A DNA stretch of 64,000 nt. It comes from Rhodamnia argentea. Its lineage: Eukaryota > Streptophyta > Magnoliopsida > Myrtales > Myrtaceae. The notes under the pieces are model-generated. The model had not been told where the DNA came from, did not search any database, and worked only from the letters and a program-made list of their open reading frames with translations. The position numbers and the translations under genes are program-made. Below are positions 5,001 through 40,823 of this stretch, piece by piece. The stretch is from NCBI RefSeq assembly GCF_020921035.1, contig NC_063151.1:6386001-6450000 (forward strand), given 5' to 3'. Numbering within the stretch: position 1 is the stretch's first letter; the number at the start of each line of letters is the position of its first letter.

Positions 5001-8000
5001 GTACAGTGGGATGCAAAGGTGACACATAACTAGAATAAGCAGAATGATGTTTATACGATTGACCCTTGATATTCTTAGGATGGCCCAACACCCATGAGCT
5101 AAATGCTTCTGATCCAGGAGTAGGGGTGTGCGTGCCTGCTTGAACTGGAAATGCAGGGCCAAAAGAAAAGCCACCACCGGGATTGTTTCCACTGTTGTTG
5201 ATAACTTCGCCCCATAGAGGAGCCTCAACTCCAGGAGGAGGCTTTATAAGATCAAATTTATTTACAGCACTGGGTTTAGAAGAACTGCCGGATGCATCTG
5301 GTGTCTTCTTATTTCGAAAAGGCTCAAAAAAGCGCCGAGGCTTAAACGATTCCAATCCAAATGCAAAGCTCTTGGAATTGCCACTACGTTGTGAAGAAGC
5401 ACGATTCTTTTTACTTTGGCCAGCCTGTGTGAATAAATAAGGGGTTGATGTATCCATCAAAGTAGGATGACTTGCTGCATCGACGAGGCCTGACAGACCA
5501 TGGCTACTAACTGAAGTATGGTTCGCCTGAGTTTGCACAGGCTCCGTCAAGCCAGTATGCTCCATCTCCTGGAGGTTCAATGAGGCCTCAGTATTTATCA
5601 GAGAGCTTGAACCATTCGCACTACTTCCACCACCAGCCTCATTTTTATACTTGGGGAGATCCGACAACCAAGGTATAGGTGCTTCCACACCTGGAGGTAT
5701 ATCCATGTTATCAAAATGAGCTTGTAGTGTATCGTATTGATCAACATCCAGTACATCTTCAAAAATGTCCATGTAGTCTTCGTCATAAGGAGATGGATCA
5801 TAAATTTGGCCATCCAGATGTACAAAGGCATGTGAATCCTGTGCTAAACCGTCAAGTGGAATGCCCCCGTTAATTGATCCATCAGCACTACCATTGACAC
5901 CATCATCCTGTTGAATCAAATATTAAATGAAACAGAGACATAAGCCAAAGAATTTTTACAGACATCGAGCTTTCGGAAGGGTCAATTTCACAATTGACTA
6001 AATAAAATTATCACTTAGGATCCCCCAATCACTAAGCTTTAAGATATTCTGAGAATATCACTCAAGTTCATTATTTCATTCTAATCATTGCATCCAGCTT
6101 TACTGAGTTTCAAATGACGAACACAAGGCATAATCTTGGACTGAACAAGGCATTCATGTGTTGATGAGGCAAACTTAAGCCCTAAGAACAAAAAGTAAGT
6201 CACAGCCACCCAAATCCACCTGCCAACTGTAGATCGGTGTTGGGGTACTGTCAAAGGAGATCAAGTCTGATTAACAACCAGATTTAGGGAAGATTTGGTC
6301 CAAACCTTTGTCCATTTGGTATAGAAATGAAATATGAAGTCCGTGGACTAATAGGATCAAATTAAAATTCAGCAATCAATCCAAGTGAGAACTGAACAGT
6401 TCAATAACCCAAACTGCAATTTGACAGAGGCAGAAAGAAAACAATTTCATATGCTATAGAAAGAGTAAGAAACTAAATGACAAGAATCACGTACCCCTAT
6501 TTGACCATTGCAGTAATCATCAACATCGATCACTGCTTTGCCTTTCCTCATCGCATCAACTTTTTTATCAATGACCATAAGATCAGCACAATCATCATCA
6601 TTGTCAATATCAATTACTTCATGGAAAACGACCTGCACAGCGGTTTATGCAAGTGTAATATGTCCATACTTAAAGATAAGAGCAGCATAAAATAGCAGTA
6701 CAAAAAAAAAAGCTGCCATAAAAAGCTGCCATAAATACTATGTTACTAGAAAGACAAGCAACTTAATGTTGTTTTAAAAAGAGTGACCAAGTACCCCTAG
6801 TAAGTTTCTTCGAGCAGCTTCAATATAGAAAGATAACTGGATAGATGCAACTTCATTGACATAAAGGATTTAAGGTGAAGCACTTTAATACTTCGATAAA
6901 ATGAGGCAGCCATGTTACAGGAGCTAGAGCCTAATGCACATCATTAAATGACAAAATCTTGGTTGTAATTCCTTTCTGACAAGCTTCACAGCTTTCTTAC
7001 AAATGTATATATCAATAGTGCCATGGGAGTGTCGCATGTTGGAAAGATGATGCTTCCTGCGTTTGGCTTTATGTTAGAAAACATAAGAAAAAAATGTTCC
7101 CTTTGCCTAGAAGTCACACTAAACCTCACTTTGGTTTAAAAGGATAAACAATTCGTTTCGATGGAAACTTAAATAACAAGTATTTAGGTCTATGCATTCA
7201 CCGACATGCTGCTTATATTGACCCACAGATATTAATCGACAATTTGATTAACCCTCCCCATTCCCAGGCTAAGTGTAAGACCTTGGTACTCAAAGATATT
7301 CAACATCTCAATCCAATTTCAAGAATAGGCGTAAGTACAAAGGAAATCACATGATCAAAGGAAAACGAACTTCAAATAGTCCAGCAGATAAAATAATAGC
7401 CAGAGTTATTTCCCATAAAAATCTGAAGCAGGAAAAGCTCAATAGAAGTTTTCTTGAAGAGTTCTTGACGGGCTCGACAATTCCACGTCCCTGTTTATCT
7501 GATCTGGACAATAATCTGGTCACCACAAAGTGATTCACACCGAAAACTTTCCCAGTACTGAAATCTAGCATTTGATTGGACCCATTACATCAAGTTCCAC
7601 AACAAAGGCGAATACTGAGAAGGGCGGTTTCAAAGTTTAGACCCTACAACATAATCTCCACCTAACATCCATTCTACGTTGGAAGACCGAAAATTAACAT
7701 CTAGTATCCCTCAAAATATTGCTAACTCAAATTTTACTGAACAGGACATATACGGAACAAGGAACAAAGATGAACGCAAATTTCAAACAATGTCCAATAT
7801 ATGCTTAGACCACAAACCAAGAAACTGAAGAGAAAACAAGGTTTATCCAATGAACCACTCAATACCGATAATATAAGACTCCACAGCAACCGAAGCCAAA
7901 ACAAACGGCATCGAAATAGACAATCGAGTCAATCTCGATGATTAATGTGAATTCACACTCTTCTTTACTTTTTAACAGCATTTTATGAATCTCCTCTTTC

Positions 8001-9201: not shown

Positions 9202-9564
9202 TAAAGGCACGTGGATTTTTTTTTATGGTCAGAAAGCCACGTGGATTTATTGGAAAGGATATCTTATTGCAGAAACATTTTTTTTATTTTTTTTTTTTTT
9301 TTTTTTTCTTACAATAACGTGATTGTCTATAAAATTTCTCGAGGAAGCAAAACTGTGGGGACACACGAATGTTCTAATTATAAGAATTTTTTTTATAATT
9401 TAGTGTTTAAGATATGATTACTCATATAAAATCAGGAGAAAATAAAAAAAATAACTCAAAATTTTTTTTCTTTTTTCCATTAAAAATTCTCTTTCGATAT
9501 TTTGTCCCTCGAAAAAATTAAAAGATAATTAAAGAAAGGAACCGTGCGTTGGGTGGGTTGCAGT

Positions 9565-12230
9565 TGCGCTCTGCTGTGGGTGAATGCAGTGGAGCGCGCC
9601 CCAGGCTTGGCAGCCAAGCTTTGTGATAATCCTATGTCATATGAATATACACCCATTTTCCGCTTATTTTTTTCTCTGCGGAAAATAAAAGGCGATGTGT
9701 ATCTCGCTTTGCCGACCGTCGGATGCGCTCGGCACCCTCGCTCACGCAAATCGCATCGACGGACGCAATTGCAACTGAAGGTGGGCCCCGGCGCGGGCTG
9801 ATCGAACGTTGAAAAAAAGGAAAAAGAAAATTGACCGAATTTTTTTTTTTTTCCCCACGCGAAGGAAAGGACTGTGGTGGGACCCGCCGAGGTTTTCGCA
9901 GAATACTATGAAGCTTTTCCCTTCTGGGAAAAAAACACAAATCTTTTTTTTTCCGAAGTATCCCCCGGTTTTTTCTCCAGAAAAGGGGTTTGATCCCGAT
10001 TTTCAAAAATCCGAAACGAAGCTGGGGAGGAAACACTCGCATGATTTCCCTTCAAATCTCCCTCCTCGACCAAATTCGCGTTGAGCCAAACAATCTCACA
10101 AGGAAATGTTGGCGTGATTTCTAAAGGATCGATTCGATCCTGTTTATTTTTCCGATCCGACGATCGGATATTGATCCAACCCCCTCGAAAGGAGATTAAA
10201 AAGTTTTACGATTCTAAATAGATGTCAATCCCTCGTTCAAATCGCGAGAATCTTGAATACGTCTGGGAGCATCAAACTGTCTTCAGTCTAGGAAGGGGAA
10301 GAAGGATTTCTCTGAATATGAAGGGGAATGCGGTGATTGTGATTTGGGGTTTTTGGATTGTTTTGATAGAGCCCCCGTCGTTTTTTCGTATTGGCACGTG
10401 GGAATGGTTCTTGCAAACTTTTCGGTTTTGGGTCAATGCAAAATTTAGAGGGCTGACATTGGAGTGACTCCAAGCCCATTTTTCCAGCTGAAAGACAAAC
10501 CTTAGGCCCAAAAAAGTGATTGGACGACATGAAGTTTTGGCCCATTAAGAGTTAAAGTTGAGATGAATTGTTAGAAATCTGGGATCCAGATTCATGGACA
10601 TGATAGCCAACCCAAACCCAATTTTTAGATTTGCTCCTACAGTTGAAATTTAGAAAGAAAAAAAATTCAGTATTATATGGGTGTAGCAGCCAATACTTCA
10701 AGATGACCACGAGATCAGTAAGTATATTGATCTTGTGCATCTGCATACACTCTTATAAATATGTGCGTGATTGAACGGTTGGCGTGATTGAACAGTTTGT
10801 GTTATATATTGATCTTGTGCATTTGCATACCCTCTTATAAATATGTTCTTTTAAGGGACATGATTGAACAGTTTGCATTATTACAAGGATGTCCAATGCC
10901 TCCATCTTATCCTTGAATTGAAGTCATAACTATTTAGTGAACGGAAAAATCCATTAGATAATGAACTGTTGGTTCTTTTTTAGTTTTCGATATATAGATA
11001 GTGAACGGCCTTTTTAAAACAAAACGAGTTCTTTCCCGTCACTTTGAATGGAAATGAAAAAGAAAAATATTGAATTGACTCCTTCAATCTCGATGATTAA
11101 AATGAAATAATAATAATATACTATTATTTCGGTGGAGCGGTTCTTTTATGCAAACTAAGCTTGTGATAGGACCGTGGAACATAATTAATTGAGTGGTAGA
11201 GTTGTGGAAACATCTCTTTCTTCCCTATTTTGGACATTAGCTCCACGGAACAATTCAATTCTATTACTTTTGCTATTATCAATAATATTTTATTACCTAA
11301 TTAAATTAACTGCTTTTTTAGTAGGTACACTTTCTCTTTGTGGTATTCCTCCACTTGACACCAAGCCCTTATTGTAGCCCGCTCTTCTGAATCAGCTGCT
11401 TTATTCTTGGTACCAACAATTAAAAATTGTTTTCCCCTACTAATAGCAGTTTCTAAATATCAAAAACTTATTACGCGAATGGTCGATTAGTGAGTATCAC
11501 ATCTCAGCCAATCAATCGGTCCATTGATCCATCTTGAATATATCCAAAGAAAAAAAGGGGTTTGTCTATTCTGTCCAAAAAAAGCCTTGTATCAAGTACT
11601 CTCTTTACATTGCAAACATGACATGTTGAACCTACCCCAACCTAAAAAGACCTATTTACCATCATGCAGGCTTGAAACCTGCATTAATAAAGTGAAATAT
11701 AATGATAAGGATGTGGCATGTTGAAAAGAAGGACGACAACCTGTTATTTTATGGATGACCGTGAGATGCGATTTGAAAACTCCAATACCAAAAGTGAATA
11801 TGTTGTAATTGTAAATTTCTAAAAGGGAAGAGGATATTCAATACGGAGAGAGGTTGCATTCGTAAGTTTCCCTTCGTAAAATATGTTTGTATTCAAATAC
11901 AAGTATATAATTGGAGTGTGAGCGACATAATGAAATTATGAGGAACAGTACTAGAAGGGAATCTCCCTCGATCTTTCTCTGTTGCACCAGCATGTTCATA
12001 TTTCACTCACTGCGCGAGAGTGATGAAGACCAGAGAAAAGGAAGACATTGTTCAAACCACTGGACTTGGGAGATCTTATCTGTACTTATTGATCCCACTA
12101 GTCCTAAATTGCCATGCTTAGTCTCCAGCCTGTGGTCTCTATTGGCAAATGAATCACATCACGAGAAAAGAAAAGCTTTGCCTCCATTGCTTTTTAGAAC
12201 CAATCGCCATCGAAAATAAAGCTTTTCCCA
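9565..12230. other. Unit A, left non-coding part
   Basis: No intact gene is seen. The stretch matches 18278-20290 in unit B apart from the 678-bp plastid-containing block. An imperfect tandem repeat of about 85 bp around ATTGATCTTGTGCAT lies at about 10720-10890. The ORFs here are short and not conserved in frame between the two copies, which argues against coding. Confidence 0.6.
11300..11455. pseudogene. Plastid-DNA insertion: ndhF-like and rps2-like fragments
   Basis: On the plus strand, about 11303-11357 translates to [16 protein letters not shown], the conserved motif of the plastid NADH dehydrogenase subunit NdhF. Directly beside it, on the minus strand (about 11450-11365), the translation [16 protein letters not shown] matches plastid ribosomal protein S2. 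These two genes are not adjacent in plastid genomes in this arrangement, so the insertion is a rearranged mosaic. Neither fragment can encode a functional protein. The fragments sit in the 678-bp block missing from unit B. Confidence 0.75.
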
Positions 12231-12239
12231 TTTCGGGCA

Positions 12240-12965
12240 GAGCTTTCATGGAGGAAGAAAGAGATCCCTCAGGGTCAGACCACCTTCTATTTCCAGTAAA
12301 TCTCAAGGGTACGTTTTGAACTGTTCAATCTATCTGATTGAGGGAATTCTTGGTGGTTAAACTCTACTGCAGCAATGATTTTGCAGGGGCATTCACCGAC
12401 CGGTCGAGCATTTTCGGGGCCGATGTCTAAGTGGGGTGTTCTCGAAACGCAGCAATACGAAAAGATAGTATAGTTCAAAGATGGGGGCACGAAGATAAGA
12501 GTGGAAGATGCTCAAATGCCTGGGATTATCTATGCTTTCTTGGCAGAAAACGGAGGTTTTCCTTAGAAAGAAAGGGATCGAGACATAGTCATCTGTATAC
12601 ACAACATCTGTCTCAGATTCCATTGGTTGTCCACTCGGACATCTTTTCATGTCGTAGAAGAGCAAAAGTAATAGTATCGAAGCCACGGATGGATGGATGG
12701 AACAGAACTCAACTAGAAATTTATGCTTTATGTAGGTAAACACCAGCAGTATGGCATCTGGAACCCATGGAATCTGTGGTGTTTGATTTAGGCTTCAGTT
12801 CAAAAGGACAAAGACGTTGAGAAAAAACACTTTTCACCTTTCGAATGGCTCGTGCATACGAAGACAATGATATTTCATGGCACTGTGAACTATCCAAGGG
12901 TCGGCGAACTTTCGAGGTCATTGACATGCAGAATAACTTGTTCTGTGACTGATGTACCCAGTACA
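12240..12965 (+). pseudogene. Unrecognised decayed gene fragment, unit A copy
   Basis: A coding-like stretch begins with ATG near 12249 (MEEERDPSGSDHLLFPVNLK) and is followed by a donor-like GGTACG at about 12308 and an acceptor-like TTTTGCAG near 12386. After that a readable frame (AFTDRSSIFG, then SKWGVLETQQYEK) continues but is broken by stops and frame changes. The paralogue at about 20300-20990 preserves some of the same frame better (for example FKDWGTKIRVEDAQ), suggesting remnants of an old exon structure. I do not recognise the family. Confidence 0.35.
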
Positions 12966-13108
12966 AGTCCTCCGTAAAGCATCTTTCTTTTCAGGCGGCA
13001 GCACTGAAAAAGATTTTTGTGGGACCTGTGACTGATGTGCGCAGTACAAGTCCTACGTAAAGCATCTTTCTTTTCATGCGGCAGCACTCAAAAAGATTTT
13101 TGTGGGAC
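12943..13108. repeat. 83-bp local tandem duplication (unit A only)
   Basis: The segment beginning CTGTGACTGATGT at about 12943 is repeated at about 13026 with an 83-bp offset, both copies ending in AAAAAGATTTTTGTGGGAC. Unit B has one copy (about 21000-21060). The following stretch to about 13320 is also absent from B and contains no gene. Confidence 0.8.
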
Positions 13109-13762
13109 TCAGACCAGGACTAACTGGTCTAAAAGACTAAGCTTATAGATTTTTATGAAAATATTTTATTGAGGAGGTAAATAGAAGTCTGGAAAAATTT
13201 GAACTTAGGACCTCCTATTCTTATAGCATGAAAGATTTTTGTGGGACCACGACCAACTGCTTTAAAAGTTTAAAATGTTAAAAAAATGCGTGATTTAATA
13301 TTTAATTACTCTAACAAGTACCACCCATTCACACAATGGGTTTAGCCTGTTAGGATGATCTTGTTCTACGAAGCTACGTAATACAATATCGATCCAAGTC
13401 GACCCATATTCACGATGGTTCTACAGTGTGTGGACAGGGAATGAGTCTTCTTCTTCCATGGAAAAATCCAGACCATGACAAAATCAAGCTGGCTGTTTGC
13501 TGCTTTTGACAGAGTGTAGCCAAAAAAAAAAAAAAAAACGATATCCTTAAAAATAAGAGAAGAGCAACAGTCCATGTCTGATCTCTCATCCCCTAAAGAA
13601 TTCTGAAGTGGACATGAGAGGAGGAAATGAGGCCAAGCCCTCCATTATTAAGATTCCTTTGGATGGATCTGCAATGGCGTGTGCTGCTCTCATGCCTAGT
13701 TTGGGTCCCACACCGGCCATTCCCGTGGCCCCGCATCGACATGAACCTCCACCGGGGCCCCT

Positions 13763-13782
13763 TGACGTCTCATCTATAAATA
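13763..13782 (+). promoter_or_regulatory. Core promoter of MT3 copy 1: TGACGT and TATA box
   Basis: TATAAATA at 13775-13782 lies 102 bp upstream of the ATG at 13884, a plausible TATA position with a leader of roughly 70-80 nt. A TGACGT element (bZIP/as-1 half-site type) lies at 13763-13768. The equivalent position in copy 2 reads TGATCT, so this site is intact only in copy 1. Confidence 0.6.
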
Positions 13783-13883
13783 CCGAGGCATAGCAGAGGT
13801 TGGAGATATAGCAAGTCACATAGCAAAACAGAAACCTTCACATACAAGTCTCCAGGCTCATCTCGTGTTCAAACTCGATCACC

Positions 13884-14923
13884 ATGTCGGACAAGTGCGG
13901 CAACTGCGACTGCGCTGACAAGAGCCAGTGCACGTAAGTGTTCACTATACTCTCAAAAAACTGAAATCAGTAGGCCTACTCATCATATAGCGAACGTGGT
14001 GCACTCGGCTTTGACAATCCATGAAACAAATGAAACGTGTTTTTGTCTGAGGCTGTGATGCACATGGTTCTGCTTCCAAATATCTGTACTTTGTGTTTCA
14101 GCAGTATAGAATTGGTTATTAAGGTGGAAATAGGAGGCATGTTAATGGTATTTACATATCTTTTGTGTTTCCACTTGCAATAAAAACATTGTGCTTCTTG
14201 ATTACAGGAAGAAGGGAAGTAGCTATGCTGCTGATTTCGTGGAGACTGAGAAGAGGTAACTGTTCCGTTTTGCGGAGTAAAAAGTTTATAAGGGGTTATT
14301 AGAAATGCAATCTCCAATACCTGGACTAAGTTGCACAAGTCCTCGTTGAAATTCCTAGCCAGTAAGAACTTGCTCTTATGGAGGACACGAGGAGTCATCC
14401 AATACGGAAACGGATTGAATTCATGATTTCTAACCCCCAAATTGACAAATCAATCTTATCGAGGAGTAGGTAAGATGTATCTGGCACTTTTGTGGATGGA
14501 GACCCATAATTATGAGAACGAACCCTTGTAAAACACAGTAACAATAAAGGAGCAATATGAATGACACCGGAACTCAATCCGAGCAAGACAATGATTCATG
14601 TGAAACATCTGCTTCTACTCAGATCTGACAAAGAAAACCTGAGATTTCAGACTTGATGCCAAAGAAAGGATTCAAACTTTTTTCAATTTCCTCCCGAAAG
14701 CCAATTTGTTACATGGTATAAGTGCCCTGCAAATGATGACTTTCCTCTTCACCCCATGAAGTATCGAGATAGGTCTTCAGTTGTGTTCAGTTTTTGATGG
14801 TTTCCTTACTGATGCAGCTATGTAGAGACTGTTTTCGTGGATGCTCCAGCAGCTGAGCATGAAGGCCAGTGCAAGTGCAGCACCAGCTGCGCCTGCATTA
14901 ATTGCATCTGTGGAAGTTACTAA
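13884..14923 (+). CDS. MT3: Type 3 metallothionein-like protein, copy 1 (3 exons, 67 aa)
   Basis: Exons 13884-13933, 14208-14255 and 14818-14923 have GT-AG junctions. The 67-residue product opens MSDKCGNCDCADKSQC with the four-cysteine N-terminal cluster typical of plant type 3 metallothioneins. A cysteine-free spacer follows (SSYAADFVETEKSYVETVF), then a six-cysteine C-terminal cluster CKCSTSCACINCIC. These cytosolic proteins bind Cu(I) and Zn(II) through thiolates and buffer metal and redox state; plant type 3 genes are often highly expressed in fruit and leaves. The tail CGSY is unusual. Compared with copy 2, a 42-bp segment containing the original stop is missing after 14906, so former 3' UTR is now translated. 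All ten cysteines remain. Confidence 0.93.
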
Positions 14924-16743
14924 TAGGTAATAATGTTGCTGGGGTGTGATTTCAATATTGTCTTGTACTGTCCTTTGGCTGCTTCAGTGGCATCAGCATC
15001 ATGGTGCAGATGCTTCACTTATAATGTCGTGTATCCCATCTTTATGGCTCAATGAACTAATATTTAGTATAAGCTCGAGTTCTGCCATTAATTGATTATT
15101 CAGTATGATGACCTCTCGATTTGTTAATGCAATATTTATGCCTGCATGATGAGTGAGCATCTACGGTGATGTGAAGGGTGCTAAAATTCAAAACCTTAAA
15201 GGAATTTCACAGAAAGAAGATAAAATCATCTAGATCATACTGTCAAATATTATTATCAAAGCATGAGATGCCAGTGATCGATGAGCAAGAATCAGGAGCA
15301 ATAGATGATAGTTTTGAAAATTTTGGATGCTTCATCTTAAGCTTTTCACGGCCGCATAAAGACAGTTGAATAATCTGCAAAACAACTAAATATTTTGTGG
15401 CTACACAAGCTAGAATTCAATTAAGAGAAGGACAAAGAGAGGAAAAAGAAACAAAAGAAAGAAAAGGAAAGAGATATTTGTTAGCATATCCTCATTACAG
15501 GTTAAACAGGTCAGACATGTCAATAAGAAAGACAGAGAGGACACATTGTTATTATTAGCCAATCAAAATCTCGTCGATTGCGATGGAAGGTGAAACAGGT
15601 ATTAATGTCCCGTTTAATGATGCCTCATCTCGCATTACAAGTAAATCCACCCACAAAATTCGTGGGAACATGTGAAGCCAGCCATGATAACTGAATCCGC
15701 AACAAGAAAAAAGGATAATAATCAAAAGCAAAGCAATAGTTCTCATGGAAAAAGCAGAACGCAAATTGATACATGAAAGAAAATAGTCTGGATCTGAAGT
15801 TCGTGATCAGGCAATCAACTGTATCATTCCATTAGGAAACTCATACTGACAAAATGATATCCTATCAAACTAACAAATGCTCAAACCTGCATATAAAATG
15901 CATTTGCACTCCATCAATATATTTTAAATAATATCAGCTCATTCCATTCGGCTTCAGCTTAGCTGCTTTAAGACATGAAAGCCCTCCATTTGAAAGCATT
16001 TGAGATGAGACTCAAATACTTTCTGCGTCTTCTTCACCGTGCTGCAAATTACATTTGTCTCGTAGCTTTTTAAGTGCCGGGACAAGATCAGAATATCTCT
16101 TTCTTCACTAGATGCTCGTGGCTGCTGAAACTTGGTCATGTTTTGACCCCGCAAGGCTGAGGCGGACGAAATACTCCATAAGGGAACTGCATCCATCATT
16201 GAACTTGAGAAACCGAAAAGCAATGATGGAAACCATACGTAGATTTCAATGTGAATAACGAAAAGAAAGTAAAATATGTGCTGGCTATACTAGCTACTAG
16301 TTTACAATTCCACACAAAGAGCAGGATATATCAGAAATTGAAACCACTGACTTAAGAAAGGGGTACGCTTGTCCTCAAGAGATTAGGATTATTTAAGCGA
16401 ACTTTCCTAATACGATATGTTTTGCCCCATAAAAGAGATTATAGTACTCGGGAAAAAATTTGTTGCTGAGCAACTGTTAGCATCAGAATTAACATCTTCT
16501 ACCCCTAGAAACCATTCAAAACTTACTGCTAATAGAACAGCTGATGAAAGATTGCATAATCGAGGTAAATGGAACTTAATGATCATCCAAGGTGAATTCA
16601 GGCTTAGGACTTCTTGTAGTAGTCAGGATATAGCAAAAAGAAAGTGGATGACTGCATCCTCGGATGGATATATTAAATGGATCAGTCTTTTTTTCCTTCT
16701 TAGCCTTCTTCCCTCTTTACTAAGTACGAGGATGCTAGATGAT
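14924..16743. other. MT3 copy 1 3' flank and non-coding spacer
   Basis: The first 200 bp is the probable 3' UTR of the metallothionein gene, with TAATAAT and AATATT motifs. The remainder matches 22730-24539 of unit B. Short minus-strand frames at 16223-15954 and 15764-15555 are kept nearly intact in both copies but I cannot assign them to a family. The plus-strand frame at 16417-16794 runs across the deletion junction and changes after it. Confidence 0.5.
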
Positions 16744-16986
16744 TCAGATTGTACTCTGGAACACTCTGTCCTTAACAAATCCCACCATGATTAGCAGGAA
16801 GCCGACAGCCACAAGCAGCAAACCCGAAAAGGAATAGGAGGTTCTGATTAAGAGTTGATCATGGGGCGTAGATCCTTGAAGCTTCTTTGCTGAAACCTCA
16901 GAGGAGTAGAACATCATAAGGCCTCCACAAGCTATGGCTACCAGAGAATGGAGTGTACAGATCAAGAAAAACCCAGAAGAACCCAT
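16744..16986 (-). pseudogene. Truncated DUF7865-type membrane-protein gene (unit A)
   Basis: The reading frame begins MGSSGFFLICTLHSLVAIAC and keeps the first two predicted membrane helices, up to the motif GFVKDRVFQS. It then stops after two foreign codons, for 80 residues in all. The intact paralogue at 26135-25725 continues to 136 residues. The break coincides with the 1363-bp deletion: downstream sequence switches to what lies at 24539 in unit B. Promoter and 5' leader sequence upstream remain, so a short two-helix protein could still be made, but loss of function is likelier. Confidence 0.85.
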
Positions 16987-18162
16987 CACTGGATAAGCAC
17001 TCCCAAGTCACGATTCACGAACAACCCCGTATCTCCTCAGACACCAACACAAACTAATGAAAGTGGCAGGAGAAACCAACAAACCACATAAACCCTATTC
17101 ATCCAAAACAAGAAAGGCCATAAAGATCCCAACTTTCAGTCCAGAATTTAAGCACCAGCCGTTCACTGCCTCAATTCTCCACACGGCCAATGTTCCTGTA
17201 ACAAGAATAAGAAGCTCAAACAAAAAACAAACATCATATGAACATCGAGCTTGCGAGCATCGGTCAACAACCTACAATGACATACAGGTGAACAAAATCC
17301 CATAAATTTCATGAAAACAGATGGACGACTCCACATACAAGAGCTGACACAACGACCTTAGATACGGACCATGATCATCACCTCAAAACCGAATCTTTAA
17401 GAGGAGAGAGCAACGAATGATCAAACTTTCTTTTGAAATTCAGACTCCAAGTGGCAAGTCGTTCTAAACTCATGATGATTATGAGAGAGAGAGAGAGAGA
17501 GAGAGATTACCCAGATGATTATATCCTAATGCATTGCCTTCCTAACCGGACCCTGAATTCTCTTTTCTAGAGGATGAGCAACAAAAGCTTAAGCATTAAG
17601 AAAAATACAAATTCCTTCTCGATGACAAGGAGATTGCTTTTTCCTTCTTGATGCCTCCCCCGCGCAAAAAAGGAAAATGCCTTTCTTTACCCGGTCACTT
17701 CTTTGCTTGTCCTGCTAAGGAAGTTCAGAAGAACTTCTTTGCTTGTCCTGCTAAGGAAGTTCAGAAGGAAAATGCCTTTCTTTACCCGGTCACTTCTTTG
17801 CTTGTCCTGCTAAGGAAGTTCAGGGCTGCTGCATCATGTCATGCCAGACTAATAAAGTAAGAGCTAAGGATAAAAACCTTGGCTTAATAAAGAAAGCAAC
17901 GATGGCACAAGACAAGGGAAGCTGCTGAGAAATTAAAAAGAATTTGCCAATTTAGGATAGATTATCAACAACCGAATCGAAAAAAATTGAACTTTCATAT
18001 TTTATGAGAGACATGAAGTTTATGGGTGGGGTTCGGACCTTTTCGATCTGTTCAATAGATAAAACAGTATTCATCAATGGAGTATTGAAGCGTTGAGATC
18101 ATGTAGGCGACCAGTCATCGTCGGTATACTTTAACAATGATTTTGCAATGTGTGAATTTTTC
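16987..18162. other. 5' flank of the truncated gene; minisatellite and GA repeat
   Basis: The stretch is homologous to 26136-27232. It contains a GA run at about 17484-17505, longer in B (26633-26666). A tandem array at 17665-17822 repeats the motif TTCTTTGCTTGTCCTGCTAA three times, where unit B has one copy (95 bp extra in A). No gene is recognised. Confidence 0.6.
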
Positions 18163-18277
18163 TAATAGAGAAAAATTGTCCAAAAAATGTCAAAGTTATT
18201 TCACTTTTGTCAATTCAACTATAAATTTTTTAATCGTGTTAATTAAGTCCTAAATCTTTTCACGTTTTACCAATTAC
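18163..18277. mobile_element. Truncated left end of a long-TIR transposon at the duplication joint
   Basis: The sequence GAAAAATTGTCCAAAAAATG and the following 95 bp match the left end of the complete element at 27233-27992. Here similarity stops abruptly and the start of unit B follows. The junction of the two tandem units therefore lies inside this element. Confidence 0.8.
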
Positions 18278-20290
18278 GCTCAGCTGCGTGTGAATGCAGT
18301 GGAGCGCGCCTCAGACTTGGCAACCAAGATTGTGATAATCCTATGATATATAAATATATGCCGATTTTCCACTTGTTTTTTCTCTGTGGAAAATAAAAAG
18401 GCGATGTGTATCTCGCTTTGCCGACCGTCGGATGCGCTCGGCATCCTCTCTCACGCAAATCGCATCGACGGACGTAATTGCAACTGAAGGTGGGCCCCGG
18501 CGCCGGCTGATCGAATGTTGAAAAAAAGAAAAGAGAAAGTTGACCGATCCCACTCGAAAGAAAGGACTGTGATGGGACCCGCCGAGGTTTTCGCAGAATA
18601 CTATGAATCGGATAAAACTTTTCGCTTCTGGGAAAAAAAACAAATCTTTTTTTTCCCGAAGTATCCCTCGGTTTTTTCTCCGGAAAAGGGATTTGATCCC
18701 TATTTTCAAAAATCCGAAACGAAGCTGGGGAGGAAACACTCACATAATTTCCCTTCAAATCTCCCTCGTCGGCCAAATCCACATCGAGCCAAACATTCTT
18801 ACAAGGAAATATTGACGTGATTTCTAATGAATCGATGCCAATTTTGATTCGATCGTTTTATTTTTCTGATCCGACGATCAGTTATTGATCCAATTTTTTT
18901 AAAAGAAGATCAAAAGGTTTCGCGATTCTAAATAGATGTTATCCCTCATTCGAATCACGATTTCTTTAGCAGAGAATCTTGAATAGGCCTCGGAGCATCA
19001 ATCTATCTTCAGTTTAGGAAGGGGAAGAAGAATTTCTTTGAATATGAAGGGGAATGCGGTGATTGTGATTTGGGGTTTTGGATTGTTTTGATAGAGCCCT
19101 CGTCGTTTTTTTGTATTGGCACGTGGGAATGGTTCTTGCAAATCTTTCGGTTTTGGGTCAATGCAAAATTTGGAGGGGTGGCATTGGAGTGACTCAAGCC
19201 CATTTGTCCAGCTTAAAGACAAACCTTAGGCCCAAAAAAGTGATTGGACGACATGAAGTTTTGGCCCATTAAGAGTTAAAGTTGAGATGAATTGCTAGAA
19301 ATCTGGGATCCAAATTCATGGACATGATAGCCAACCCAAACCCAATTTTTAGCTTGCTCCTACAGTTGAAATTTAAAAAAAAAAAAAATCAGTATTATGT
19401 GGGTGTAGCAGCCAATGCTTCAAGATGACCACGAGATCAGTAAGTATATTGATCTTGTGCATCTGCATACACTCTTATAAATATGTTCGTTTAAGGTATG
19501 TGATTGAACAATTGGTGTGATTGAATAGTTTGTGTTATATATTGATCTTGTGCATTCGCATACGCTCTTATAAATATGTTCTTTTAAGGGATATGATTGA
19601 ATTGTTTGCACTATTATGAGGACCTCCAATGCCTCCATCCCTTGTATCAAGTACTCTCTTTACATTTCAAACCCGGCACTTTGAACCTCCCCCAACCTAA
19701 AAAGACCTATTTACCATCATGCAGGCTCGAAACCTGCATTAATAAAGTGAAATATAACGATAAGGATGAGGTACGTTGAAATGAAGGACGACAACCCGTT
19801 ATTTTATGAATGATCTTTAGATGCGATTTGAGAAATCCAATACCAAAAGTGAAGATGGTAATTGTAAATTTCTAAAAGGGAAGAGGATATTCAATACGGA
19901 GAGAGGTTGTATTTGTAAGTTTCCCTTCGTAAAATATCTTTGTATTCAAATACAAGTATATAATTGGAGTGTGAGCGACATGATGAAATTATGAGGAACG
20001 GTACTAGAAGGGAACCTCCCTCGATCTTTCTCTGTCGCACCGGCATGTTCATATTTCGCTCTCTGTGCGAGAGTGATGAAGACCAGAGAAAAGGAAGACA
20101 TTGTTCAAACCACTGGACTTGGGCGATCTTATCTGTACTTATTGATCCCACTAGTCCTAAATTGCCATGCTTAGTCTCCACTCTGTGGTCTCTATTGGCA
20201 AATGAATCACATCACAAGAAAAGAAAAGCTTTGCCTCCATTTCTTTTTAGAACCAATCGCCATCGAAAATAAAGCTTTCCCCCATTTCGG
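18278..20290. other. Unit B, left non-coding part
   Basis: The stretch is homologous to 9565-12230 without the 678-bp plastid-containing block; the corresponding junction is near 19640. It includes an approximately 85-bp imperfect tandem repeat at about 19440-19590. No intact gene is seen. Confidence 0.6.
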
Positions 20291-20299
20291 GCAGAGCTT

Positions 20300-20990
20300 T
20301 CATGGAGGAAGAAAGCGATCCCTCGGGGCCAGACCACCTTCTATTTCCACTAAATCTCAAGGGTAAGTTTTCAACTGTTCAATCTATCTGATTGAGGGAA
20401 TTCTTGGTGGTTAACCTCTACTGCAGCGATGATTTTGCAGGGGCGTTCACTGACCGGTCGAGTATTTTCGGGCCCATGTCTAAGTGGGGTATTCTCGAAA
20501 CGCAGCAATACGAAAAGATAGTATAGTTCAAAGATTGGGGCACGAAGATAAGAGTGGAAGATGCTCAAACGACTGGGATTATCTATGCTTTCTTGGCAGG
20601 CAGCAGAGTTTTTCCTTAGAAAGAAATGGATCGAAACAGTCATGGGTATACACAACATCTGTCTTTCTCAGATTCCATTAGTTGTCCACTCGGACATCTT
20701 TTCATGGCGTCGAAGAGCAAAAGTAATAGTATCAAAGCCACGAATGGATAGATGGAACAGAACTCAACTAGAAATTTATGCTTTACGTACGTAAAACACC
20801 AGCACTACGGCGTCTGGAATCCATGGAATCTGTGGCGTTTGATTTAGGCTTCAGTTCAAAAGGACAGACATTGAAAAAAAAAAAACACTTGTCACCGTTT
20901 GAATGGCTTATAGATACCAAGACAGTGATATTTCATTGCACTGTGGACTATCCAAGGGTCGACGAACTTTCGAGGTCATTGACATGCACA
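20300..20990 (+). pseudogene. Unrecognised decayed gene fragment, unit B copy
   Basis: This is the paralogue of the fragment at 12240-12965. Here the ATG-linked frame (MEEESDPSGPDHLLFPLNLK) and the later stretch SKWGILETQQYEK are still readable, separated by a GT..AG-like interval, but stops interrupt it. I do not recognise the family. Shared lesions with unit A would mean it was dead before the duplication. Confidence 0.35.
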
Positions 20991-21514
20991 ATAACTTGTT
21001 CTGTGACTGATGTGCCCATTACAGGTCCTACGTAAAGCTTCTTTCTTTTCATGCGGTAGCACCACCCATTCATACAATGAGTTTAACCTGTTAGGATGAT
21101 CTTGTTCCACGAAGCTACGTAATACAAGATCGATCCGAGTCTATCCATATTCACGACCGTTCTACAGTGTGTGGACAGGGAATGAGTCTTCTTCCTCCGT
21201 GGAAAAATCCAGACCAAGCCAAAATCAAGCTGGTTGTTTGCTGGTTTTGACATAGTGCATAGCCAAAAAAGAAAAAAACGATATCCTTAAAAATAAGAGA
21301 AGAGCAACAGTCCATGTCTGATCTCTCAACCCCAAACGAATTCTGAAGTGGACATGAGAGGAGGAAATGAGGCCAAGCCCTCCATTATTAAGATTCCTTT
21401 GGATGGATCTTCAATGGCGTGTGCTGCTCTCATGCCTAGTTTGGGTCCCACACCGGCCATTGCCGTGGCCCCGCATCGACATGAACCTCCACCGGAGCCT
21501 CTTGATCTCTCATC

Positions 21515-21522
21515 TATAAATA
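21515..21522 (+). promoter_or_regulatory. TATA box of MT3 copy 2
   Basis: TATAAATA lies 102 bp upstream of the ATG at 21624. The surrounding promoter is almost identical to copy 1 for several hundred bases, but the TGACGT element just upstream in copy 1 reads TGATCT here. Confidence 0.6.
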
Positions 21523-21623
21523 CCGAGGCATAGCAGAGCTTGGAGATATAGCAAGTCACAAAGCAAAACAGAAAACTTCACATACAAGTCTCCAGGCTCA
21601 TCTCGTGTTCAAACTCGATCACC

Positions 21624-22663
21624 ATGTCGGACAAGTGCGGCAACTGCGACTGCGCTGACAAGAGCCAGTGCACGTAAGTGTTCACTATACTCTCAAAAAA
21701 CTGAAATCAGTAGGCATACTCATCATATAGCGAACGTGGTGCACTCGGCTTTGACAATCCATGAAACAAATGAAACGTGTTTTTGTCTGAGGCTGTGATG
21801 CACATGGTTCTGCTTCCAAATATCTGTACTTTGTGTTTCAGCAGTATAGAATTGGTTATTAAGGTGGAAATAGGAGGCATGTTAATGGTATTTACATATC
21901 TTTTGTGTTTCCACTTGCAATAAAAACATTGTGCTTCTTGATTACAGGAAGAAGGGAAGCAGCTATGCTGCTGATTTCGTGGAGACTCAGAAGAGGTAAC
22001 TGTTCCGTTTTGTGGAGTAAAAGTTTATAAGGGGTTATTAGAAATGCAATCTCCAATACCTGGACTAAGTTGCACAAGTCCTCGTTGAAATTCCTAGCCA
22101 GTAAGAACTTGCTCTTGTGGAGGACACGAGGAGTCATCCAATACGGAAACGGATTGAATTCATGATTTCTAACCCCCAAATTGACAAATCAATCTTATCG
22201 AGGAGTAGGTAAGATGTATCTGGCACTTTTGTGGATGGAGACCCATAATTATGAGAACGAACCCTTGTAAAACACAGTAACAATAAAGGAGCAATATGAA
22301 TGACACCGGAACTCAATCCGAGCAAGACAATGATTCATGTGAAACATCTGCTTCTACTCAGATCTGACAAAGAAAACCGGAGATTTCAGACTTGATGCCA
22401 AAGAAAGGATTCAAACTTTTTTCAATTTTTTTCCTCCCAAAAGCCAATTTGTTACCTGGTATAAGTGCCCTGCAAATGATGACTTTCCTCTTCACCTCAT
22501 GAAGCATCGAGATAGGTCTTCAGTTGTGTTCAGTTTTTGATGGTTTCCTTACTGATGCAGCTATGTAGAGACTGTTTTCGTGGATGCTCCAGCAGCTGAG
22601 CATGAAGGCCAGTGCAAGTGCGGCACCAGCTGCGCGTGCATTAATTGCACCTGTGATCAGTGA
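21624..22663 (+). CDS. MT3: Type 3 metallothionein-like protein, copy 2 (3 exons, 66 aa)
   Basis: Exons are 21624-21673, 21948-21995 and 22561-22663. The protein matches copy 1 through the N-terminal cluster and spacer except ETQK for ETEK. The C-terminal cluster CKCGTSCACINCTCDQ is closer to the usual plant type 3 ending (CKCGTSCACxNCTCG). Its TGA lies in a 42-bp segment (22650-22691) absent from copy 1. Ten cysteines in the standard CxxCxC...C and CxC...CxC..CxC spacing support metal binding. Introns are nearly identical to copy 1, so the pair is young. Both copies have complete splice sites and TATA boxes, so both are probably expressed. Confidence 0.93.
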
Positions 22664-25600
22664 GCACAGAGACCCCGTGCTCTATGCATGTTCTGTGGAA
22701 GTTACTGATAAGTAATAATGTTGTTGTGGTGTGATTTCATTATTGTCTTGTACTGTCCTTTGGCTGCTCCAGTGGCATCTGCATCATGGTGCAGATGCTT
22801 CACTAATAATGTCGTGTATCCCATCTTTAAGGCTCAATGAACTAATATTTAGTATAAGCTCGAGTTCTGCCGTTAATTGATTATTCAGTATGATGACCTC
22901 TCGATTTGTTATTGCAATATTTATGCCTGCATGATGAGTGAGCATCTACGGTGATGTGAAGGGTGCTAAAATTCAAATCCTTAAAAGGAATTTCACAGAC
23001 AGAAGATAAAATCATCTAGATCATACTGTCAAATATTATTACCAAAGCATAAGATGCCAGTGATCGATGAGCGAGAATCAGGAGAAATAGATGATAGTTT
23101 CAAAAATTTTGGATGCTTCATCTTAAGCTTTTCACGGCCCGCATAAAGACAGTTGAATAATCTGCAAAACAACTAAATATTTTGTGGCTGGAGAAGCTTG
23201 AATTCAATTAAGAGGAGGACACAGAGAGGAAACAGAAACAAAAGAAAGAAAAGGACAGAGATATTTGTTAGCATATCCTCATTACAGGTTAAACAGGTCA
23301 GACATGTCGATAAGAAAGACACAGGACACATTGTTATTATTAGCCAATCAAAATCCCGTTGATTGCGATGGAAGGTGAAACAGGTATTAATGTCCCGTTT
23401 AATGATGCCTCATCTCGCATTACAAGTAAATCCACCCACAAAATTCGTGGGAACATGTGAAGTCTGCCACGACAACTGAATCCGCAACACGAAAAGAGGA
23501 TAACAATCAAAAGCAAAGCAATAGTTCTCATGGAAAAAGCAGAACGCAAATTGATCCATGAAAGAAAACAGTCTGGATCTGAACATGATCAGGCAATCAA
23601 CTGTATCATTCCATTACGAAACTCATACTGACAAAATGATATCCCATCAAACCAACAAATGCTCAAACCTGCATATAAAATGCATTTGCACTCCATCAAT
23701 ATATTTTAAATAATATCAGCTCATTCCGTTCGGCTTCAGCTTAGCTGCTTTAAGACATGAAAGCCCTCCATTTGAAAGCATTTGAGATGAGACTCAAATA
23801 CTTTCTGCGTCTTCTTCACCGTGCTGCAAATTGCATTTGTCTCGTAGCTTTTTAAGTGCCAGGACAAGAACAGAATATCTCTTTCTTCACTAGATGCTCG
23901 TGGCTGCTGAAACTTGGTCATGTTTTGACCCTGCAAGGCTGAGGCGGACGAAATACTCCATAAGGGAACTCCATCCATCATCGAACTTGAGAAACCGAAA
24001 AGCAATGATGGAAACCATATGTAGATTTCAATGTTAACAACGAAAAGAAAGTAAAATATGTGCTGGCTATACTAGCTACCAGTTTACAATTCCAGACAAA
24101 GAGCAGGATATATCAGAAATTGAAGCCACTGACTTAAGAAAGGGGTATGCTTGTCCTCAAGAGATTAGGATTATTTAAGCGAACTTTCCTAATACAAGAT
24201 GTTTTGCCCCATAAAAGAGATTATGGTACTCGGGAAAAAATTTGTTGCTGAGCAACTGTTAGCATCAGAATTAACATCTTCTACCCCTAGAAACCATTCA
24301 AAACTTACTGCTAATAGAACTGCTGATGAAAGATTGCATAATCGAGGTAAATGGAACTTAATGATCATCCAAAGTGAATTCAGGCTTAGGACTTTTTGTA
24401 GTAGTCTGGATATAGCAAAAAGAAAGTGGATGACTGCATCCTTGGATGGATAAATTTAATGAATCAGTCTTTTTTTCCTTCTTAGCCAAGCCTTCTTTCC
24501 TCTTTACTAAGGACGAGGATGCTAGATGATTCAGATTGTCGCCTGGGAAATGCACAATCCTATGAACCCAGATGAATGGTATCTAACCTGTTATTTTAAT
24601 CCCTCGTTATTTCTTCTTTGGATCTTATGGATCAAAACAACTGAAGAACGTCCATGATAAACCTAACTTACTTCGCCTGATGAAGACAACATAAAGGCCA
24701 CATCAAGGGCTCAAATGAGACAACACATACGTTGGTTTGTCCTCCACAAGTAATAACTCTAAACATAACTTACCATCCCCAACATCTGCAATTCTCCTGG
24801 ATAAGAATGGGCTAGTTCGACTGCAATTGTAAGCATTTCCATGTGAAGGTCAATCATAGCATTCAGTATTTTGGAACTGTGTCAACGGATTAATGAACTT
24901 CGCCTTCCTGAGTGAAGAAGCTAAATTCCTAGTTCCCGACCGCTTCATCCACCATGTTAAGTCCAAGAAAGAGCATATAGCAGCACCAAAACACATGGAA
25001 AACACAAGCTTTGCACGTAATTGGCTAATTTTGTATTGAAGTGGACAAAGGTGACAGAGAATGTTTTGACAAAGAAGTCGATCTGAATGTACAAGAACTT
25101 CAATTGAGGAAACGAGCTTCATCCTCTTGGATGACTTAAAAAGCAAACAGGCAGAACTGCACAGGTTTCCCTTATCTCCACTTCTAAGATTCAAGCACTA
25201 TATGCTAAAACATGAATTCACCAACAGCTGGCGGGTCATGACAACATCCACTCGTTGCTATTATCTGTAAATAAAATCTACAAAACAATTTCTCAACGTG
25301 AAGCAAATGATGGCAGCACTCCAAACTCCGACCTTTGACCCATCTTCAATATAGCGACAATTAATCGATCCCTGAGATTTTCGAAACACCTGCGAACAAG
25401 ATGAAAACATGGGCATCCTCCAGCTTGTGCGGAATTCCAGTAGAAATAATTGCCTTGATGAAAATTACATAACCAAACTATCCAGGAATTACAGGCGCAT
25501 CATATCCTACTTTTTGCTCTTTTGGCTGCAGCTCCACCACCCAAGACCAGAGACACCAGATTGACAAACCTACAGTCCATACTTTTCCAGCTCCAATGTA

Positions 25601-25724
25601 TTGTTTCATGCCAAAAGAAGCATAACTGGGCAATTGCATAAGCATTTTGCAATCGCAGTCAATGCCTACCAGGGAAATTTTCGGAGTCCCTATCATCACA
25701 GCACAGACAATCCAGTTTTCCAAG
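22664..25724. other. Spacer between MT3 copy 2 and DUF7865 gene; possible unrecognised minus-strand exons
   Basis: The metallothionein 3' UTR is followed by sequence with several minus-strand frames: 25194-24850; an open stretch ending at a good donor (LAHSYPGELQML then GTAAGTT, near 24773); 24005-23736; and 23549-23340. They could be exons of an unrecognised gene, because the two shared with unit A keep their frames there, but the frames could also be neutral in such a young duplication. The 24540-25902 part is missing from unit A, so any such gene is broken there. Part of the right end is the 3' UTR of the DUF7865 gene. Confidence 0.3.
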
Positions 25725-26135
25725 CTAATCATACTTTTCCCTCCATGAGTACACCAAAAAGAGGATCCAGGAAACTGCTAATGCAATATCGCCAACAACC
25801 TTCCTTGGCCACTCATCGGCAAGTTCATCCACCTTCCTCTCAAAGTAAAACCTCCAAATGGCAGTCGCGACATGGAGGAGCACACAACCTTTTGCGAAGA
25901 AGCTCTGGAACACCCTGTCCCTAACAAATCCCACCATGATTAGCAGGAAGCCGACAGCCACAAGCAGCAAACCCGAAAAGGAATCTGAGGTTCTGATTAA
26001 GAGTTGATCATGGGGCGTAGATCCTTGAAGCTTCATTGATGAAACCTCAGAGGAGTAGAACATCATTAGGCCTCCACAAGCTATGGCTACCAGAGAATGG
26101 AGTGCACAGATCAAGAAAAACCCAGAAGAACCCAT
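25725..26135 (-). CDS. DUF7865-type small membrane protein (136 aa)
   Basis: A single open frame begins MGSSGFFLICALHSLVAIAC and ends VYSWREKYD. Four hydrophobic segments are visible at about residues 5-25, 50-70, 80-98 and 114-132, with an acidic/basic loop (FERKVDELADEWPRKVVGD) before the last. Length, helix layout and the motifs TPHDQLLI, FFAKGCVLLH and SWREKYD match a conserved plant family of unknown function that I know as DUF7865. The ATG at 26135 is chosen; the codon before it is GTG. The truncated paralogue lies at 16986-16744. The molecular role is not known. Confidence 0.8.
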   Translation of the reverse strand: MGSSGFFLICALHSLVAIACGGLMMFYSSEVSSMKLQGSTPHDQLLIRTSDSFSGLLLVAVGFLLIMVGFVRDRVFQSFFAKGCVLLHVATAIWRFYFERKVDELADEWPRKVVGDIALAVSWILFLVYSWREKYD

Positions 26136-26627
26136 CACTGGATAAACACTCCCAAGTCACGATTCACGAACAACCCCGTATCTCCTCAGACACCAACACA
26201 AACTAATGAAAGTGGCAGGAGAAACCCACAAACCACATAAACCCTATTCATCCAAAACAAGAAAGGCCATAAAGATCCCAACTTTCAGTCCAGAATTTAA
26301 GCACCAGCCGTTCACTGCCTCAAATCTCCACACCGCCAATGTTCCTGTAACAAGAATAAGAAGCTCAAACGAAAAACAAACATCATATGAACATCGTGTT
26401 TGCGAGCATCGGTCAACAACCTACAATGACATACAGATGAACAAAATCCCATAAATTTCATGAAAACAGATGGACGACTCCATATACAAGAGCTGACACA
26501 ACGACCTTAGATACGGACCATGATCATCACCTCAAAACCGAATCTTTAAGAGGAGAGAGCAACGAATGATCAAACTTTCTTTTGAAATTCAGACTCCAAG
26601 TGGCAAGTCGTTCTAAGCTCATGATGA

Positions 26628-26667
<40 letters not shown>

Positions 26668-27232
26668 ACCCAGATGATTATATCCTAATGTATTGCCTTC
26701 CTAACCGGACCCTGAATTCTCTTTTCTAGAGGATGAGCAACAAAAGCTTAAGCATTAAGAAAAATACAAATTCCTTCTCGATGACAAGGAGATTGCTTTT
26801 TCCTTCTTGATGCCTCCCCCGCGCAAAAAAGGAAAATGCCTTTCTTTACCCGGTCACTTCTTTGCTTGTCCTGCTAAGGAAGTTCAGGGCTGCTGCATCA
26901 TGTCATGCCAGACTTATAAAGTAAGAACTAAGGATAAAAACCTTGGCTAAATAAAGAAAGCAACGATTGCACAAGACAAGGGAAGCTGCTGAGAAATTAA
27001 AAAGAATTTGCCAATTTAGGATAGATTATCAACAACCGAAGCGAAAAAAATTGAACTTTTATATTTTATGAGAGACATGAAGTTGATGGGGTGGGTTCAG
27101 ATCTTTCCGATCTGTTCCGTAGATAAAATAGTATTCATCGGTGGAGTATTGAAGCGTTGGGATTATGTAGGCGACCAGTCATCGTCAGTATACTTTAACA
27201 ATGATTATGCAATGTGTGATTTTTTTAATAGA
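26136..27232. other. 5' flank of the DUF7865 gene
   Basis: Probable leader and promoter of the minus-strand gene, including a GA/CT dinucleotide run at about 26633-26666. The plus-strand frame at 26206-26454 lies antisense in the leader and is not taken as a gene. No TATA box is assigned with confidence. Confidence 0.45.
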
Positions 27233-27992
27233 GAAAAATTATCTAAAAAGTCTCAAAATTATTTCAGTTTTGTCAATTCAACTATAAATTTTTTAATTGC
27301 GCTAATTTAATCCTAAACATTTTCACGTTTTGTCAATTGAGTCTATCCGGTCACTTTTGACATGAAATCACTAACGTAGATGCCGGCCGTCTTACGTGGC
27401 ATTGTTTGCGATGCCGTCAACAATCTTTAATATTTTATTGATTTTTTTATTCTACAATCTTCTTTTCTTTTCTTTTTATTTTTTTCTTTTCTTTCCTTTA
27501 TTTTTTTTTACTATGGCGAACGAGCACAGCAAACGTCCTAGGCCATCGCCAGGCCTCATGAATGGCTTGTAGAGGTCGTCAACTTCGGAGGAGGGCCACT
27601 CTCGCAAGCCTCAAGCAAGAGCCGAGATTGCAGCCTGCCCTCGCCCAAGGCCAAGGCTGGGGAGAGCAGCCCTCACTCGATGCCGATAGAGTGAAATTGG
27701 AAAAAAGAAAAGACTTGAAAAGGAAAAAAAGAAAAAGAGTAAAAAAGGAAAACGAAAAGAAAAAAATTAAAAATTATTCACATCAATATCAGCCGCATCA
27801 CTTAGGACTTCCGGTGTCCACGTCGGCGATTTTCAATCAGAATTGCCCGGATAGAGTCAATTGACAAAACTTGAAAAAGTTTAAAACTCATTGGCATAAT
27901 TAAAATTCGATAAAAAAAATTGATCGAACTAAAAAATTTAGGTTGAATTGATAAAAGTGCAATTAATTTAGAATTTGTTGTATAATTTTCCC
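27233..27992. mobile_element. Long-TIR non-autonomous transposon (complete)
   Basis: The left end GAGAAAAATTATCTAAAAAG and the right end, inverted, GGGGGAAAATTATACAACAA, open imperfect inverted repeats of about 170 bp. Both arms share TTTTGTCAATTCAA and TTTTGTCAATTGAgTCTATCCGG-type blocks. The core has GC-rich sequence (about 27520-27680). No transposase is present. Related arms occur at 50630, 53776 and about 54650. No convincing target-site duplication is visible. Confidence 0.7.
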
Positions 27993-40262: not shown

Positions 40263-40532
40263 TCACTTGTTTTTGAACTTAAGGGCATTCCAAATTTCTC
40301 CGACGGACTTGAGTCCGATAAACAAGTCATAGAGACAATCAAAGAATATGTTCAGCATATGATCTCGACTGAGCAATTCGTCCTCTTCACGTTTCTTCCT
40401 CTCCTTGCCGACCCTTTCAACATTTACATTTTCTACACTAGGTTGTCCTCCTTCAGCGGCAGATTGCGGGTTCTCTATAGGCAACAAATCAAGATTCAGT
40501 ATGTAGGATATCTTCAAGGCCGTCGGAAGAAA
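40263..40532 (-). pseudogene. copia-type gag-like remnant
   Basis: The minus-strand frame contains [32 protein letters not shown] and [19 protein letters not shown], which resemble the gag N-terminal (UBN2) region of plant Ty1-copia retrotransposons. It is continuous in frame with the petA-like fragment to its right (40536-40805). No protease, integrase, reverse transcriptase or LTR is seen nearby, so this is an isolated fragment. Confidence 0.6.
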
Positions 40533-40535
40533 ACC

Positions 40536-40805
40536 TCCCTCGTTACCATTAGCAAGAACTTGTTTAATTTGCAAATCATAAAGAATTCGAACAATTGCTT
40601 CAAATACGGTATCGTAAAGTATCGCTTGTGGAACCTCAATATCCACGAGCTTATTAGCTAAATGGCAATTGGCACATACAATACACCCGGTTGCTTCTTG
40701 TGAATTTTCATAACCCTGCTGTGCAAAAATGCGATATGCATTTGAAATGAATGTCCAAGTTATGATATATATCATCAACAATACAGAAATAAACCGAATA
40801 ATCTC
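40536..40805 (-). pseudogene. petA: Plastid petA (cytochrome f) 5' fragment in nuclear DNA
   Basis: The minus-strand translation [20 protein letters not shown] resembles the cytochrome f transit/signal region, and [26 protein letters not shown] and QVLANG match the start of mature cytochrome f. The heme-binding CANCH motif is preserved. It covers only the first third or so of the gene, has many substitutions and is joined to a retroelement-like frame instead of the rest of petA. It is a nuclear plastid insertion without expected function. Confidence 0.88.
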
Positions 40806-40823
40806 ATCATTTTGTCTCACCAA

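Follow-up and report, generated by a model that had tools for sequence, protein, structure and literature searches.

Two tandem type 3 metallothionein genes of Rhodamnia argentea differ in their C-terminal endings across a 42-bp indel at the stop codon

We analysed a window of 64,000 nucleotides from Rhodamnia argentea (contig NC_063151.1, positions 6,386,001 to 6,450,000 of the forward strand); all positions below are counted from its first base. Comparison of the window with itself by Blast revealed a tandem duplication (9.6-18.3 kb and 18.3-27.3 kb) interrupted by indels of up to 1362 bp. Each tandem unit carries one intact three-exon gene for a plant type 3 metallothionein (MT3), here called copy 1 and copy 2.

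9561..18275, no strand assigned: tandem unit 1, given as the outer limits of the matching pieces
18271..27338, no strand assigned: tandem unit 2, given as the outer limits of the matching pieces
13884..14923, plus strand: MT3 copy 1, exons 13884-13933, 14208-14255 and 14818-14923, 67 amino acids, sequence read directly
21624..22663, plus strand: MT3 copy 2, exons 21624-21673, 21948-21995 and 22561-22663, 66 amino acids, sequence read directly

Both copies have an intact ATG and intact splice sites, with GT-AG at both introns, and a TATA box lies about 110 bases before the ATG in each. Copy 1 stops at TAA (14921-14923) and copy 2 at TGA (22661-22663). The copy 1 protein ends ...CKCSTSCACINCICGSY (CICGSY) and the copy 2 protein ...CKCGTSCACINCTCDQ (CTCDQ). 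A preliminary description of this DNA had given the endings as ICGSY and TCDQ; direct reading shows these and their coordinates to be correct and confirms both frames.

What kind of metallothionein do these genes encode? Each copy has ten cysteines, four N-terminal and six C-terminal, the pattern given for plant type 3 metallothioneins in the portions at hand of three accounts (PMC11151532, PMC11529040, PMC10142807). Both copies contain the N-terminal four-cysteine cluster of the type, CGNCDCADKSQC, and its C-terminal six-cysteine cluster, CKCxxSCACxxCxC. Moreover, both are divided into three exons, and two introns are described for the type 3 genes of cassava in the available part of that study (PMC10142807). 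The PF01439 (Metallothio_2) profile scores 13.9 bits on copy 1 and 16.1 bits on copy 2 against a curated cut-off of 23 bits, and a Pfam search at E 0.001 matched it to neither. Since neither copy reaches the cut-off, the type 3 assignment rests on cysteine pattern, gene structure and length. Paper mulberry offers a parallel, its one type 3 protein also lying outside the metallothio_2 domain according to the portion of the source consulted (PMC11151532). NCBIfam, searched to E 1, matched neither copy, and copy 1 matched no PDB entry by sequence at E up to 10. We found no convincing third metallothionein-like gene in the window: the next best tblastn match has E 0.68, and a cysteine-motif scan of the window returned two matches, which are the two MT3 copies.

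The neighbourhood agrees with the MT3 assignment. Upstream of the MT3 copies, on the minus strand, lie two pieces of the ubiquitin-conjugating-enzyme domain UQ_con (PF00179), at 4145-4324 (37.5 bits) and 3718-4086 (26.2 bits, just below the cut-off of 27). These pieces fall in a large ubiquitin-conjugating-enzyme gene (3718-5922, minus strand) that we take to be possibly UBC24/25-like and syntenic with Arabidopsis MT3; in Arabidopsis, UBC25 (At3g15355) adjoins MT3 (At3g15353). Other features of the window are recorded here in their own right. Unit 2 contains a DUF7865 gene (ORF 25725-26156, minus strand; PF25266, 197.2 bits). Unit 1 lacks 1362 bp (16752/16753 against 24540-25901 of unit 2); the first 60% or so of the DUF7865 reading frame is kept in unit 1, and about the last 40% is lost with the 1362 bp. 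Unit 1 has a perfect 59-bp direct repeat (17670-17728 and 17765-17823), one repeat unit of which (95 bp) is absent from unit 2. Farther along, 55012-55244 and 55900-56142 form an inverted repeat whose arms, each about 230 bp long, match at 85% and stand about 650 bp apart; it is possibly a transposable element. The ORF at 40263-40868 (minus strand), which by eye we take to resemble chloroplast cytochrome f (petA), is perhaps plastid DNA in the nuclear genome. No Rfam family matched at its gathering score within the window.

The two units differ unevenly. Their alignment contains 18 indels of at least 4 bp, the large ones being 317, 678 and 1362 bp. Divergence is 0.6% within the MT3 gene and 2.3-7.4% in the other stretches measured, and it reaches 17-21% in windows near the outer edges. 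The tandem arrangement is known from one assembly, and two diverged haplotypes placed end to end would produce such a picture as an artefact; however, the range of divergence and the three large indels fit old paralogues better than alleles, and we regard an artefact as extremely unlikely.

The low divergence within the gene is concentrated in one tract.

13836..14639, plus strand: near-identical tract covering exons 1 and 2, intron 1 and most of intron 2, aligned with 21576-22378

Within this tract 5 of 803 aligned sites differ (0.6%), two of them in exon 2, compared with 114 of 2623 sites (about 4%) in the rest of 13320-16752. The introns in the tract differ at 3 of 657 sites, compared with 111 of 2517 non-coding sites outside, a contrast for which Fisher tests are too optimistic because the tract limits were set after inspection. 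Permutation of the longest stretch with at most 0, 1, 2, 6 or 9 differences needs no boundaries, but assumes an even rate of change outside; it gave p 0.0114, 0.0004, 0.002, 0/5000 and 0/5000, respectively, and none of the 5000 shuffles had a stretch as long as the 859 aligned bases with at most six differences. The contrast is carried by the introns, and the exons alone do not show it: exon 2 belongs to the tract and differs at 2 of 48 sites, one of them a Glu/Gln difference, and the part of exon 3 that precedes the indel, beyond the tract, differs at 2 of 89. The simplest cause of this pattern, and a probable one, is a recent gene conversion spanning the tract, a feature that the preliminary description did not mention. 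The tract reaches neither exon 3 nor the 3' UTR, so the C-terminal ending may predate what the N-terminal similarity suggests; the pre-indel part of exon 3 has too few sites to demonstrate an older ending alone. We also considered that the indel itself blocked gene conversion, and rejected this since some 270 bp separate the end of the tract from the indel.

The endings of the two proteins differ at a single indel. Alignment of the two copies bears out the earlier observation that the 42 bp at 22650-22691 of copy 2 are missing after 14906 in copy 1.

22650..22691, plus strand: 42-bp block present in copy 2 only, with the last codons, TGA and the first 28 bases of the 3' UTR
14906..14907, plus strand: junction in copy 1, inside the Ile codon ATC (14906-14908)
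22651..22655, plus strand: first CTGTG repeat, holding the last Cys codon of copy 2 (TGT, 22652-22654)
22693..22697, plus strand: second CTGTG repeat, in the copy 2 3' UTR, aligned with 14908-14912 of copy 1
22662-22667 and 22677-22682, within the block: inverted repeat GAGCAC/GTGCTC, read directly

The block begins inside a Thr codon, continues with TGT GAT CAG TGA and runs on into the UTR. The last Cys codon of copy 1 (TGT, 14909-14911) aligns with UTR bases of copy 2 (22694-22696). The preliminary description had noted that all six C-terminal cysteines survive; both copies do have six, and that account was incomplete in that the sixth codon of copy 1 corresponds to 3' UTR in copy 2.

How might 42 bp have been lost or gained here? 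The segment had been described as bordered by CTGTG direct repeats, in keeping with deletion by slippage or microhomology. The repeats are present, and they are more than chance for this one indel: at least five matching bases at, or no more than two bases from, the ends of a 42-bp interval occur in 0.87% of the 7610 intervals in unit 2. The mechanism drawn from them did not stand as proposed. Microhomology at the exact breakpoint is 0 bp, because T14907 of copy 1 matches the right flank and a C precedes the first CTGTG. Any junction within the repeat leaves ACC (Thr), whereas copy 1 has ATC (Ile), and we therefore rejected simple CTGTG slippage as the whole story. The junction needs either an additional C-to-T change, before or after the event, or repair to T of a mismatch beside the repeat, or homology-free (blunt) end joining. 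By eye, we also considered a two-step route using the TGCA repeats that lie within the block and at its left edge; it would require an extra loss of 3 bp and would shift the spacing of the last cysteine in the intermediate.

Predicted RNA folding lends modest support to a structure-assisted deletion. Around the copy 2 stop (22640-22720), the predicted energy is -20.5 kcal/mol, where shuffled sequences average -14.82 (z -2.16), and 5 of 200 shuffles were at least as good; the corresponding stretch of copy 1 (14890-14950) folds unremarkably (z 0.11). The predicted copy 2 fold is not simply the GAGCAC/GTGCTC inverted repeat. Beside the indel, the first 50 bases contain five substitutions where a rate of 3.7% per site was expected (P 0.036), an excess too weak to use, the stretch having been picked after inspection of the data.

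In which copy did the change occur? We clearly favour a deletion in copy 1 over an insertion in copy 2, because of the usual MT3 endings and of weak, mixed profile scores. MT3 proteins usually end about two residues after the last cysteine, as in papaya, apple and banana, and often with Gly plus one residue, so the tail length fits copy 2 and the Gly fits copy 1. Gly straight after the last cysteine is common in MT3, and this mildly favours the copy 1 ending. In the PF01439 profile, the Gly of CKCG in copy 2 beats the Ser of copy 1 by 3.9-4.1 bits, and the Thr of copy 2 beats the Ile of copy 1 by 1.3-1.5 bits. The Glu/Gln site is inconsistent, Glu gaining 2.9 bits in copy 1 (13.9 against 11.0) and Gln 0.3 bits in copy 2 (16.1 against 15.8). 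Once these three inner sites are made equal, a construct with the GSY tail scores 19.3 bits and one with the DQ tail 15.8, although the profile itself ends at the last cysteine.

An insertion would mean that the ancestral protein ended in CGSY and that 42 bp carrying their own stop then shortened the tail of copy 2 to DQ. Several observations point this way. Continuing the reading frame of copy 2 beyond the TGA yields AQRPRALCMFCGSY, which still ends ...CGSY and is followed by two stops. These tandem stops (TAATAG in copy 1, TGATAA in copy 2) have been kept despite a substitution in each codon, an outcome also compatible with an ancestor that ended in CGSY. The flanking CTGTG could be a target-site duplication, the GSY tail stands 3.5 bits above DQ once the inner sites are equal, and the final CG resembles the common endings of the type. 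On the other hand, the best other match to the 42-bp block in the window is 13 bp long (E 6.2) and no second copy was found there, so the block seems not to be an insert of locally repeated sequence. At the junction itself the CTGTG repeats do not match perfectly, copy 2 keeps the profile-preferred Thr before the last cysteine and Gly in CKCG, and its two-residue tail has the usual length. On balance, we consider an insertion unlikely. Sequences for comparison were sought in two collections by tblastn; no relative was confirmed in viral_contigs (2 stretches with the pattern) or genome_contigs (24), which comprise viruses, bacteria and archaea and in which plants were not expected. Among the literature matches listed for letter strings, we found no plant MT3 peptide to align as an outgroup, and such endings may be in print. 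In the portions at hand, the paper mulberry study gives MEME motifs in place of peptides (PMC11151532), and another study describes its 'TaMT3' as type 2 and prints no protein sequence (PMC4100158).

Whichever the direction, no ligand position is lost through the indel, and both proteins retain their four N-terminal and six C-terminal cysteines. Apart from the Ile/Thr difference, the residues that differ after the junction fall beyond the last metal ligand. The preliminary description had suggested an altered tail chemistry through an added Tyr and a lost acidic residue. Copy 1 does have one more Tyr than copy 2, and otherwise the suggestion went too far: each protein has a computed net charge of -4.5 at pH 7, because the tail Asp of copy 2 is offset at residue 31, where copy 1 has Glu and copy 2 has Gln. 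From these features we infer that copy 1 is most likely an expressed, working MT3 paralogue with a near-neutral change of tail, and its metal binding would be predicted to involve the same ten cysteines.

Two other views of copy 1 deserve mention. It could be a decaying, unexpressed copy whose frame is still open only through the youth of the duplication. Such decay would be consistent with its Ser for the profile-preferred Gly and its Ile for Thr, and with the absence from unit 1 of the 1362 bp that include about the last 40% of the DUF7865 frame. However, copy 1 has no premature stop, frameshift or loss of a splice site, it keeps its TATA box, and its cysteine pattern is intact across the indel, all of which make decay very unlikely. 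Alternatively, the new tail could be adaptive, so that copy 1 prefers another metal or has a partner of its own. This idea draws on Noccaea caerulescens, in which, according to the parts of the sources at hand, an extra MT3 copy exists and the gene is implicated in copper homeostasis (PMC4064536), and a change in its MT3 sequence was suggested to enhance the binding of copper (PMC4382971). Here, no ligand has been gained or lost, the computed net charge is unchanged, and the coding differences are too few for a test of selection; adaptation is hardly to be expected. The tail difference is most likely ordinary divergence between tandem paralogues.

Altogether, the explanation we prefer is tandem duplication followed by loss of 42 bp in copy 1, leaving a near-neutral tail and conserved metal binding, and we hold it to be reasonably probable as a whole. 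A type 3 metallothionein gene would first have been duplicated in tandem together with about 9 kb around it. Copy 1 would later have lost 42 bp comprising its last codons, the stop and the start of the 3' UTR, in a deletion probably guided by the two CTGTG repeats and the small inverted repeat between them. A mismatch may have been resolved towards the right-hand repeat copy, or a C-to-T change added before or after. The sixth cysteine codon of copy 1 would thus have been replaced by one derived from UTR, because the right-hand repeat has TGT in the same frame. Translation would then have continued for four codons (CGSY, which begins with the last cysteine) until it met pre-existing stops in the UTR.

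What follows if the loss from copy 1 is real? A short deletion at a stop codon would have changed the ending of a protein and kept its cysteine pattern, since the UTR repeat happens to supply the missing Cys codon in frame; this would be a small but clear example of such a change. In practice, homology-based annotation may assign the same ending to both MT3 copies. A further idea, which we think quite unlikely, is that the microdeletion made 3' UTR coding, replacement ligand cysteine included, while gene conversion keeps exons 1 and 2 near identical (one amino acid differs), so that divergence between the copies is less restrained in the C-terminal domain, where they could be becoming specialised.

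These genes have counterparts in other plants. The metallothionein families of rice and cassava include tandem genes and, as here, expand by tandem duplication; the portions of these accounts at hand describe no C-terminal indel between copies, unlike the situation in R. argentea (PMC8431808, PMC10142807). Noccaea caerulescens likewise has a lineage-specific extra MT3 gene, which the available part of that report finds among transcripts (PMC4064536), whereas ours is a tandem copy in genomic DNA with a C-terminal indel. Both R. argentea copies share with type 3 proteins like Arabidopsis MT3 (At3g15353) the four and six cysteines, the cysteine-free spacer, two introns and a length of about 65 amino acids. 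Unlike those proteins, copy 1 has four final codons, that of the last cysteine included, which align with untranslated sequence of its neighbour, copy 2.
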